Source of the DNA: Bacteroidota bacterium
GTDB lineage: Bacteria > Bacteroidota > Bacteroidia > Chitinophagales > Saprospiraceae
Assembly: GCA_003648285.1 (NCBI GenBank)
Contig: QMOR01000004.1
Location: forward strand, 1-32,233
Reading direction: 5' to 3'
Length of the DNA: 32,233 nt
Numbering within the stretch: position 1 is the first letter of the stretch; the number at the start of each line of letters is the position of its first letter. Position numbers and translations under genes: made by a program. The notes beneath the pieces are model-generated. The model was not told the origin of the DNA and searched no databases. It worked only from the letters and a program-made list of their open reading frames with translations. Positions 734 to 5,022 of this stretch are shown here, piece by piece.

Positions 734-829
734 CAGCTTTTAGTCATCTCTAGCTCTGTGTACTTGAGCAGTTAGCACCAGTTCTGTTTACTTGAGTGGT
801 TATCTCCAGTTCTGTGTACTTTTGAATCA
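734..829. repeat. Degenerate 28-bp tandem array filling the BASS-OmpA intergenic gap
   Basis: Units at 752 (agctctgtgtacttgagcagttagcacc), 780 (agttctgtttacttgagtggttatctcc) and 808 (agttctgtgtacttttgaatca...) with 28 bp spacing; a weak earlier half-unit may lie before 752. Confidence 0.75.
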
Positions 830-1414
830 ATGACAGCGTCGCCATCTAAACCAAAAAAAGATTCCAAACCGCTACCCTTATGGACAAAAATTCTCCCTTG
901 GGTTATTCTCATATCGACTGCTGTCGTATTGTTTTTCGTTGTGCAAAAAGGCTGCGTTTCGAATGTATTGCAAGCAGATCCAGATGAAACTGTAACGTCA
1001 GGCCAGTCAGATTATCCCAGCCAGGGAGTTCATGATATAACGGTTGCTTTGGAAAAGTCGAGTACCAAAGACAGGGAATTTGTACTGGACGGGATCACTT
1101 TTCTTCAGGCTTCCGGATTATTAGAGGCATCCTCGATGCCGGCACTCCAGCAATTATTGACGATGATGAAGAACCATCCTACGGCGCACATCAGGTTGGA
1201 AGGATATTGCCGAATGCAGGAAAACACAAAGGCAAACCTCAGGGTATCGCATCAGAGAGCTGCGGCTGTTGCAAATTTTCTCGAAGCAAAAGGTATTGAT
1301 GCCGGTAGGCTAAGAACTGTAGGGCGTGGAGATAGCCGTAGACGGACTACTGGTGCATCGTCGCAAAGTGCCTCCCAAAGCGCACTTCTTGGATTGTACG
1401 TTGAGCGCATTTAG
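830..1414 (+). CDS. OmpA family protein (one N-terminal TM segment, C-terminal OmpA-like domain)
   Basis: N-terminal TM (LPWVILISTAVVLFFVVQ); C-terminal 'IRLEGYCRMQENTKANLRVSHQRAAAVANFLEAKGIDAGRLRTVGRGDSRR' matches the OmpA_C peptidoglycan-binding pattern. Confidence 0.8.
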   Translation: MTASPSKPKKDSKPLPLWTKILPWVILISTAVVLFFVVQKGCVSNVLQADPDETVTSGQSDYPSQGVHDITVALEKSSTKDREFVLDGITFLQASGLLEASSMPALQQLLTMMKNHPTAHIRLEGYCRMQENTKANLRVSHQRAAAVANFLEAKGIDAGRLRTVGRGDSRRRTTGASSQSASQSALLGLYVERI

Positions 1415-1415
1415 G

Positions 1416-1555
1416 CAAATCATCATATAGGTCTGCGTCCCCAACAAATCATCATATAGGTCTGCGTCCCCAACAAATCATTATGTCGGTCTGCGTCCCC
1501 AACAAATCATCATGCAGGTCTGCGTCCCCAAATCATGTAGATCTGCGCCCCCAAT
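1416..1555. repeat. 29-bp tandem array (five copies) spanning the OmpA/permease convergent intergenic region and the 3' end of the permease CDS
   Basis: Copies at 1416, 1445, 1474 and 1503 (period 29; caaatcatcatataggtctgcgtccccaa; first two identical) and a 3-nt-deleted copy at 1529 (caaatcatgtagatctgcgcccccaa) that contains the permease stop codon (1533-1535, minus). Confidence 0.92.
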
Positions 1556-2846
1556 AGTAAATTGGTAATCCGAGGACGAGTAGTCCGATTCCCCACAATG
1601 CTTGTTCGGGTCGCCCAATTAGCATGTAAATGACAAACCATACTGAAATGCCAATAAAGATGAGTGGCACTACGGGATAACCAGGTGTCCTGAATGAGGA
1701 CCTGGCATCAGAATTACGACGAAAAACGAATACGGTCACTGCACCAATTATCATAAACACCCAGTCAATGAAAACGACGGAAGCGATCACTTTTTCAAAC
1801 GACCCCCAGATGAAGAGGATCACAATAGCCCAGCCAGACTGCAGAAGGATTGCATTGGCCGGGGTCCCGTATTTGGGATGAATCCTGGAAATCAAATCGA
1901 AAAATTTCCCATCCTGTGCCATAGCGAGATAAATCCTTGGCGCGGTCATCGTGAATATGCCGATGCTCCCGAAGGTGGAAATGAGAATCAGAACGGTTAC
2001 CAGATGGGACCCTGATGGCAGTACTGACTTCAGTGCATCTGAGGCTACAGCTTTTGATTGAGCCATCTCTTCTAATGGAAGCAGGCGCATATATGCCACG
2101 TTTGCCATCACATAAGTCACAGTCACAATCAGGGCTCCAAGGATCATGGCCCGTGGCACAACGTACTCGGCATTTCGGGTTTCCGCACTCAGAAACGAGG
2201 CGTGTTGCCACCCTCCAAATGACCAAAGCACACCAATCATGGCAAGCGCAAATAATCCGATACTGCTTGTATCTGAAGTCAATTCAGATGCCACTTCTAT
2301 TTCCGTAACTCCAGACACTGCATTTCCCAGTGCGATTCCCGCCACGACAATGATTAATATACCAATCAGCTTGAAGGATGTGAACAAGTTTGAGAATACC
2401 TCGCCCCATTTCACCCCAAAAACATTGATCACCGTAACTGAAGTAATTACCGATATACCAACGATGATCATCCCGGTCTCATCAAGTTCTATATATGCGC
2501 TCAGATACCTGGCAAAAGTGAGGCTTAGCGCGGCGATTGCACCCGAAGTAATCACTGTAAGCGTACTCCATCCATAGAGAAAAGCCCACAAATCGCCGAA
2601 AGCTTCACGGATATACACATATACACCACCCACTTTGGGGTAGAGCGCTCCCAGCTCCGCAAAAGTCAGTGAGCCTGTGACTGCCACTACACCACCAAGC
2701 AGCCATGCTGCAATGATCAGATCAGGACTTTTCAACAAAGCGGCGATATCACTCGGCACAACAAAAATCCCTGACCCTATGCATGAGCCAACGGCTACCA
2801 TCGTCAGACCATAAAAGCCGATTTTCTTTTTGAGGTGTCCTTTCAT
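1533..2846 (-). CDS. APC superfamily amino acid permease
   Basis: 437 aa, about 12 TM segments; N-terminal 'GFYGLTMVAVGSCIGSGIFVVPSDIAALL' is the APC consensus; 'FGGWQHASFLSAETRNAEYVVPRAMILG' is also typical. Confidence 0.9.
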   Translation of the reverse strand: MKGHLKKKIGFYGLTMVAVGSCIGSGIFVVPSDIAALLKSPDLIIAAWLLGGVVAVTGSLTFAELGALYPKVGGVYVYIREAFGDLWAFLYGWSTLTVITSGAIAALSLTFARYLSAYIELDETGMIIVGISVITSVTVINVFGVKWGEVFSNLFTSFKLIGILIIVVAGIALGNAVSGVTEIEVASELTSDTSSIGLFALAMIGVLWSFGGWQHASFLSAETRNAEYVVPRAMILGALIVTVTYVMANVAYMRLLPLEEMAQSKAVASDALKSVLPSGSHLVTVLILISTFGSIGIFTMTAPRIYLAMAQDGKFFDLISRIHPKYGTPANAILLQSGWAIVILFIWGSFEKVIASVVFIDWVFMIIGAVTVFVFRRNSDARSSFRTPGYPVVPLIFIGISVWFVIYMLIGRPEQALWGIGLLVLGLPIYYWGRRST

Positions 2847-2849
2847 CTA

Positions 2850-2857
2850 TAAATTTG
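2850..2857 (+). promoter_or_regulatory. Candidate Bacteroidota -7 element (TAAATTTG) for the aspartyl protease gene
   Basis: TAAATTTG fits TAnnTTTG about 57 nt upstream of the start; upstream TTG at 2830-2832 has a short spacer (17 nt). Confidence 0.35.
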
Positions 2858-2913
2858 GATATTAGGTGCTATTCATAGTGTAGGGGGCCGAAAATCCTCT
2901 TTCTTTACCTTGA

Positions 2914-4176
2914 TTGAGAATAATACCGTGTAGTGTGTATGTAATATACCTCCTTCGATTCTTTTTTACGCTGGTCGCCGCATGTTATTTCTCATTTGCG
3001 GCGGCACAAAACATCACTTTCGATATCCTGAATGGCGAGGATAAGATTGAAGTTCCTTTTTCCTTTACGCATAATTTTATCATCGTTGAAGTGCGGCTAT
3101 TCGGGATGATGCCTATGAATTTCATCTTTGACACGGGAGCTGAAAACACAATACTTTTTACACGCCAGTTTGCAGATTTCCTTGATGTGAAATACGATCT
3201 GCGCATCCCTATCATAGGTTCGGACATGAGTAGAAAGCTCTATGCTCTAGTCGCGCGGTCTATAGAATTTGAGCTTGTTGGCTTACCCACGCAAAAGAAG
3301 GATATTCTTGTATTGGAAGAGAACCCATTCAACTTGTCTGAAATAACAGGTATTCAAATTCACGGGATTTTGGGTGGTAGCTTCTTTAAGAATTCGGTCA
3401 TTGAAATTGACTTCAGGAAGCAAAAACTCATTTTTCACAACCCTGTGACATTTAAGGCTCCGGGCAAGGCATATTCGAGGCTCAATGTAGAAATCCTTGG
3501 CAATAAACCATACCTCAAAGCTAAAAGCACTCTGATGAACGGGACAGAGGCCGATCTGAAATTACTGGTCGACACGGGAGCCGGGCTGCCATTGTTGCTG
3601 CACAACAACTCCCATCCAAGCCTGGTACTTCCAGAGCACTACATCCTTGGCAAACTGGGCTTTGGCCTGGGAGGATATATCGAGGGTTATGTCGGTCGTA
3701 CACGCAAGTTGAGTATTGAGGGGATTACATTTGACAACGTGCTCACAAGCTTTCAGGATATTAGTGAAGCGGTCACCATGGGTACGATATGGCCAAGAAA
3801 TGGTCTCATTGGAAATCAGCTTTTGCTTCGGTTTGATGTCATTATAGACTATGTAAAGGAATTGATGTACCTCAAACCAAGATTGCGCTATAATCGCAAG
3901 TTCAAAATGGACAAAAGCGGGCTGATCCTGGTTGCCATTGGTCCCAATCTGAACAATTTTATGGTACAGGGCACGATAGCGAACTCACCTGCGGCAAATG
4001 CCGGATTAGTGCGTGGAGACAGGCTTGTGAGAATCAATGGCTTGCCGGCGAGGGGATATTCACTTGATCAGATCCATCGTGTATTCCAAAAACGCACCGG
4101 CAAACAAATTAAATTGGTGATCTATCGAAACGGAGAAACAATCAAACTGCGATTTGACTTGAAGGATCTGATATAA
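2914..4176 (+). CDS. Secreted aspartyl protease family protein (two retropepsin-like halves) with C-terminal PDZ domain
   Basis: Signal peptide (YLLRFFFTLVAACYFSFAAAQ); two active-site motifs FDTGAENT (Asp codon at 3130) and LVDTGAGLP (Asp codon at 3571); C-terminal PDZ 'GTIANSPAANAGLVRGDRLVRINGLPARGYSLDQIHRVFQ'. Listed start is TTG; GTG at 2935 is an alternative. Confidence 0.85.
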   Translation: MRIIPCSVYVIYLLRFFFTLVAACYFSFAAAQNITFDILNGEDKIEVPFSFTHNFIIVEVRLFGMMPMNFIFDTGAENTILFTRQFADFLDVKYDLRIPIIGSDMSRKLYALVARSIEFELVGLPTQKKDILVLEENPFNLSEITGIQIHGILGGSFFKNSVIEIDFRKQKLIFHNPVTFKAPGKAYSRLNVEILGNKPYLKAKSTLMNGTEADLKLLVDTGAGLPLLLHNNSHPSLVLPEHYILGKLGFGLGGYIEGYVGRTRKLSIEGITFDNVLTSFQDISEAVTMGTIWPRNGLIGNQLLLRFDVIIDYVKELMYLKPRLRYNRKFKMDKSGLILVAIGPNLNNFMVQGTIANSPAANAGLVRGDRLVRINGLPARGYSLDQIHRVFQKRTGKQIKLVIYRNGETIKLRFDLKDLI

Positions 4177-4252
4177 CGCACGTTAAACCTGAAGGAAATG
4201 TTATAGCTCACGTTAAACCTGAAGGAATTGATATTACTGACATTAAACCTAA
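4151..4252. repeat. 30-bp tandem array starting inside the protease 3' end and running into the rplU promoter region
   Basis: 4151 gatttgacttgaaggatctgatataacgca / 4181 cgttaaacctgaaggaaatgttatagctca / 4211 cgttaaacctgaaggaattgatattactga / 4241 cattaaacctaa...; exact 30 bp period. Confidence 0.88.
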
Positions 4253-4261
4253 AGCCACCTC

Positions 4262-4291
4262 TTGACTAATAGCATAAAAAAGGTATCTTTG
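4262..4291 (+). promoter_or_regulatory. Bacteroidota-type promoter for rplU-rpmA
   Basis: TTG (4262-4264), 19 nt spacer, TATCTTTG (4284-4291), matching the TTTG/TAnnTTTG promoter architecture, 32 nt before the rplU start. Confidence 0.8.
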
Positions 4292-4323
4292 CGCTCCTAA
4301 TTTTTCGATCAAAGAGTATTGCT

Positions 4324-4987: not shown

Positions 4988-5022
4988 AAAAAAGCCCTTC
5001 GGATGACCGAAGGGCTTTTTTT
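4988..5022. terminator. Bidirectional intrinsic terminator between rpmA and the 1565-aa gene
   Basis: aaaaaagcccttcgg-atga-ccgaagggcttttttt: GC-rich stem with T tract on either strand. Confidence 0.93.

Follow-up and report, generated by a model that had tools for sequence, protein, structure and literature searches.

Three nearby intergenic gaps in a bacterial contig each carry a tandem array with a period of 28 to 30 bp, which raises the question of whether a common element, a common function or a common mutational process placed them there. The window analysed here (32,233 nt) is the entire contig C4 of a 290-contig, 2.76-Mb draft MAG (G000) that is 72.6% complete. It encodes CHU_C and Por secretion-tail proteins, which are markers of Bacteroidota, and the MAG is probably Saprospiraceae-like. 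The minus strand also contains four giant secreted-protein ORFs of 1315–2589 aa (5034–26616), with PKD, Ig, SprB, reprolysin and type IX secretion sorting domains. The features around the arrays are as follows; rplU and then rpmA lie downstream of the protease gene.

29–733: SBF-family transporter gene
741–821, no strand assigned: array 1, period 28 (TRF span 755–821; a degenerate half copy precedes it at about 741–754)
830–1414: OmpA-domain gene, ATG at 830
1416–1531, minus strand: array 2, four 29-bp copies by TRF, occupying the whole gap where the OmpA-domain and permease genes converge
1533–2846, minus strand: amino-acid permease gene
2847–2913, no strand assigned: divergent gap, used as a control
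2914–4176, plus strand: aspartyl protease gene with a PDZ domain
4160–4254, plus strand: array 3, period 30
4262–4291, plus strand: likely rplU promoter, TTGACT ... TATCTTTG (a scan gave TTGACT/TATCTT)

Three strong arrays with unrelated units

TRF identified three strong arrays in the window, with periods of 28 (array 1, 2.4 copies), 29 (array 2, 4.0 copies) and 30 (array 3, 3.2 copies). Their scores of 99, 197 and 120 far exceeded the best scores of 39–42 obtained from 300 dinucleotide shuffles of each gap, which bears out an earlier note that had reported arrays of these periods from the sequence alone. Beyond these, TRF listed one row derived from array 2 (score 71) and some short, weak repeats with scores ≤47. 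TRF also confirmed that the divergent gap is free of arrays, and local alignment of the three units (P 0.57–0.78) agreed with the claim that they are mutually unrelated. A motif common to the three units was rejected by the same alignments. Three arrays of this period class within 3.5 kb would be expected with P ~0.009 under random placement, for a site that was picked post hoc.

Other parts of the earlier description required correction. The gaps had been described as almost wholly repeat, which is true of array 2; array 1 occupies 67 of 96 bp and array 3 about half of its gap. The third gap does contain an array, although its true extent is 4177–4323 and not 4177–4252. The arrays had also been placed 3' of genes. 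Array 3 starts 17 nt inside the upstream gene, and the gap of array 2 is convergent, such that both flanking genes terminate there.

Two arrays repeat the ends of neighboring genes

Arrays 2 and 3 are each built from the terminal sequence of the gene beside them.

1530–1557, minus strand: array 2 source copy, permease 3' end (YYWGRRST-stop)
4160–4189, plus strand: array 3 source copy, final 17 nt of the protease gene (...LKDLI-stop) plus 13 nt
4190–4254, plus strand: further copies of array 3, two of 30 bp and a 5-nt partial copy

In minus-strand orientation, four copies of TTGGGGACGCAGACC(T/G)(G/A)(C/T)AT(G/A)ATGATTTG come after the permease end ATTGGGGGCGCAGATCTACATGATTT. The permease end thus contains a fifth, degenerate and shorter copy, which corresponds to the array 2 unit minus 3 nt and is the most diverged of all copies; the two copies most distant from the permease gene are identical. 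A second convergent array (C25:3431–3562, L035; 32 bp × 4.1) covers both stops of its gene pair and has the same layout, with a diverged copy at the end of the minus-strand gene and identical copies opposite. In relatives, all of which are related to G000 at the family level or more distantly, the permease likewise ends in aromatic and basic residues.

In array 3, the unit TGAAGGATCTGATATAACGCACGTTAAACC is made up of the 17 terminal nt of the protease gene and the next 13 nt, and the partial copy at the end of the array reads TAAAG compared to TGAAG at its start. Most relatives have LRDLI, LKDLI, LEDLI or a near variant at the protease C-terminus, and no array with a TRF score of at least 50 was found at the protease end in 29 relative loci. 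Weak arrays with short units were present at this end in L078 (period 14) and L090 (period 9), with unrelated words. The protease–rplU order is kept in four relatives, where the gap to the rplU ATG is 107 (G012), 92 (G018), 114 (G019) and ~64 bp (G007). The corresponding gap in the window is 147 bp, or 87 bp once the two 30-bp copies are subtracted. TTGACT/TATCTTTG before rplU fits the −33/−7 promoter type of Bacteroidota, and array 3 ends just short of this promoter-like region, leaving it intact.

The protease tail is conserved in relatives whose loci lack such an array, and the permease tail is likewise shared by relatives; the gene copy is therefore ancestral and the remaining copies descend from it. 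Arrays 2 and 3 therefore grew outward from the gene ends. The earlier suggestion that gene-end DNA had been amplified thus applies to arrays 2 and 3; for array 1 no such source could be shown, and a dedicated amplification process is unsupported. A literature search for bacterial tandem repeats of similar size that overlap stop codons found nothing on point.

Array 1 lies between the transporter stop (733) and the OmpA-domain ATG (830). It starts 21 nt past the stop, or ~7 nt if the degenerate half copy, which may extend the array, is counted, and its 3' end is 8 nt upstream of the ATG. Unlike arrays 2 and 3, the adjacent gene ends yielded no source for its unit. Forty relatives were searched without a hit to the OmpA-domain gene at E ≤1e-20, so array 1 is without an orthologous gap on the OmpA side. 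A search of genome contigs for close named relatives returned one distant locus only. The final partial copy of array 1 (within 811–829) reads TACTTTTG 8 nt before the OmpA-domain ATG, which fits the Bacteroidota −7 box (TAnnTTTG). Array 1 may have supplied promoter sequence here.

Intergenic arrays across the genome

A census was carried out with TRF (score ≥50) on intergenic regions with flanking genes in 1.17 Mb of the 2.76-Mb MAG. Genes were called mechanically as the longest non-overlapping ORF with the first start codon; distances measured to starts are therefore less sharp than those measured to stops. This analysis yielded 60 intergenic arrays compared to 9 in 20 complete shuffled sets (0.45 per set), while a 250-kb E. 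coli K-12 control contained no intergenic array with a unit below 80 bp. Most periods lay between 7 and 34 and a few were longer, so that a special period of 28–30 bp is not supported and these lengths are part of a broad range.

The census arrays fell into two classes. One consists of dispersed families with periods of 7/14/21, 8/16/24 and 9/18 bp that match each other across contigs, with words near AATTTTG, GCGGGAT, ACTCCTCA and AAGCGACAA.

C38:4365, C53:9058, C71:7908, C5:10074, C8:9896: loci of the dispersed 7/8/9-mer families
C2:7589, C21:3316, C24:7522, C16:2238: further loci of these families

The second class consists of locus-private arrays (n=47 at a TRF score of 40, with periods of 7 to 34 bp plus two longer). 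Among the 14 units of period 26–34, 11 had no other match in the 1.17 Mb, two had one marginal match and one belonged to a dispersed element, which upholds the earlier view that the arrays are not copies of a single dispersed mobile repeat.

Taken together, the arrays avoided divergent gaps and favored convergent ones. For all 60 arrays, divergent gaps contained 4 compared to 15.4 expected (P 1.6e-4) and convergent gaps 16 compared to 9.4 expected (P 0.02); several tests were made, and the P values are uncorrected. With periods of 26–34 alone, divergent gaps contained 3 arrays compared to 3.6 expected and the class bias was not significant. Within this period range, 11 of 15 stop-side ends were ≤5 nt from the array compared to 7.4 expected from random placement of the array in its gap (P 0.011), or 8 compared to 5.6 with the window left out (P 0.048). 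Overlap with the stop codon occurred at the level of chance (8 versus 6.4 expected, P 0.21), and the 40 arrays in codirectional gaps were split between 23 nearer the stop and 17 nearer the start. A strong pull to stop codons is not supported; the attraction seems weak.

Arrays in relatives

Intergenic arrays of period 26–34 were more frequent in G000 (14 in 1.17 Mb) than in 12 relatives (1 in 0.80 Mb; P 0.005); the relatives contained 21 intergenic arrays of all periods in this 0.80 Mb. At 65 gene ends corresponding to three window genes, relatives had four arrays (score ≥50) no more than 100 nt from the stop, with another two close to the start. Arrays crossed the stop of the permease gene in G023 (period 24) and of the transporter gene in G003 (period 22), and permease-end arrays were also present in G014 (period 21) and G012 (period 72). 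The G012 array (L158) consists of 2.4 copies of a 72-bp unit located 20–192 nt past the permease stop and contains a TCGCTACGCTCAGAATGACA-like word. The array words at orthologous ends differed among relatives and from the window, and the arrays therefore have repeated, independent origins with no sequence in common.

Origin of the arrays

From the tandem copies, the gene-end source of arrays 2 and 3, the absence of these arrays in relatives and the avoidance of divergent gaps, we infer slippage as the mechanism, and neutrality. The reading that we favor, with a probability of about 0.75, is that the window arrays are locus-private minisatellites that arose from slippage-duplicated gap DNA and were tolerated where they were harmless. 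Slipped misalignment at replication would tandemly duplicate a short piece of gap DNA, which in two cases would span the stop codon; re-duplication would follow and the copies would diverge. The head-to-tail copies, the short partial copy at the end, and the diverged older and identical newer copies are consistent with this slipped-strand origin. A duplication spanning the stop would spare the protein, as the first copy would still supply both coding end and stop. DNA past a gene end holds little regulatory information. Duplications would survive at gene ends for these two reasons, whereas selection would remove duplications that hit promoters or coding frames. The similar periods would reflect a broad size range of duplication events with no set ruler. 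The simplest account of array position is thus selection against damage rather than attraction.

Neutrality alone does not explain the excess of 26–34-bp arrays over relatives. A mutational bias of the lineage toward duplications of this size, e.g. through a missing exonuclease that suppresses slipped structures, is compatible with tolerated slippage duplication, and we give it roughly one chance in five. The 14 arrays compared to one in relatives are in its favor, as is the repair gene content: G000 has MutS and no match to RecJ or SbcD, gene absences that are weak in a MAG of this completeness. RecJ (TIGR00644) was detected in 1 of 10 family members including G000 (8 of the 9 others sampled had no match) and in 6 of 6 sampled genomes from the other families of the order; for SbcD, 6 of 9 family members exceeded the cut-off. 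RecJ is also absent from relatives without the excess, and loss of repair would be felt throughout the genome rather than at gene ends. Somewhat less probable is a lineage-specific quirk of mutation or repair by which ~26–34 bp are duplicated time and again, preferentially at gene ends, with the coding copy as source and additions at the far end.

A function at transcript 3' ends, whether in termination, mRNA protection or as spaced protein-binding sites, is improbable. The arrays sit after genes, and a unit length of about three helical turns, as judged from the sequence, would suit spaced binding sites. None of the three arrays contains a terminator-like hairpin with a T-run, and fold z-scores were ordinary (+2.0 for array 1, −1.1/−1.9 on the two strands for array 2 and +0.1 for array 3), in contrast to −6.2 for a strong intrinsic terminator after rpmA (4988–5021). 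The arrays were thus rejected as intrinsic terminators, since they lack a GC-rich hairpin with a T-run and a stable fold, and the earlier proposal that they might terminate transcripts or protect mRNA was not supported. The units are unrelated and private, nothing supports the proposed protein spacing, and the same gene ends in relatives are without these arrays.

An assembly artefact is very improbable. The MAG is a draft in 290 contigs and array 2 has two identical copies; however, the arrays (67–116 bp) are shorter than a common read length, several substitutions separate most copies, and besides the 60 arrays of G000, comparable ones occur in other assemblies that were made independently. 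Least probable is insertion of a dispersed repeat family (STRR/heptamer, REP or BOX-like) at the window sites: G000 does contain the dispersed 7/8/9-mer families, but the three window units had no other match in the 1.17 Mb searched of the 2.76-Mb genome, and for arrays 2 and 3 the origin lies in the neighboring gene.

Comparison with known repeat systems

Mycobacterial MIRU are a family of dispersed elements. MIRU and pneumococcal BOX resemble the window arrays in having intergenic tandem units of tens of bp; BOX is likewise a dispersed family (boxB 45 bp; PMC1315331), whereas the window units are not dispersed. Membership in any of the STRR, REP, BOX or MIRU families, which have the same unit at many loci, was rejected within the 1.17 Mb. 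Arrays of the heptamer TAACTGA occur in Bacteroidetes, Cyanobacteria and Beggiatoaceae, where they are intergenic and in some cases extend across stops, with array-free gaps reported in close relatives (PMC4679880). The window arrays are similar in these three respects. The heptamers are a single dispersed 7-bp word, located mostly before starts in Beggiatoaceae (PMC4679880), whereas the window units are private and 28–30 bp long. It is the 7/14/21-bp arrays of G000 outside the window, and more generally its dispersed 7/8/9-mer families, that resemble the heptamer class of Cyanobacteria and some Bacteroidetes (PMC4679880).

Prokaryotic minisatellites (unit ≥10 bp) have been described as under-represented and little studied (PMC3324548), while intergenic VNTRs with units of 12–51 bp are routine typing markers in MLVA (PMC1315331). 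The window arrays share with these elements tandem units of at least 10 bp, a small number of copies that have diverged, and an intergenic location (PMC1315331, PMC3324548). As expected of minisatellites, the copies are arranged head to tail with a unit ≥10 bp, and the unit is locus-specific within the 1.17 Mb. The difference is that two of the window arrays have a demonstrable source in the adjacent gene end. We conclude that the window arrays are private, partly gene-end-derived minisatellites, an already known kind of element.

In arrays 2 and 3 the conserved C-terminus marks the source copy, and the relatives, as an outgroup, show that the gap DNA was built from the coding end. Marking the source copy in this manner provides a simple way of orienting bacterial minisatellites. 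If the excess of 26–34-bp arrays holds in complete genomes, it would become testable whether the loss of repair genes is linked to the birth of minisatellites.
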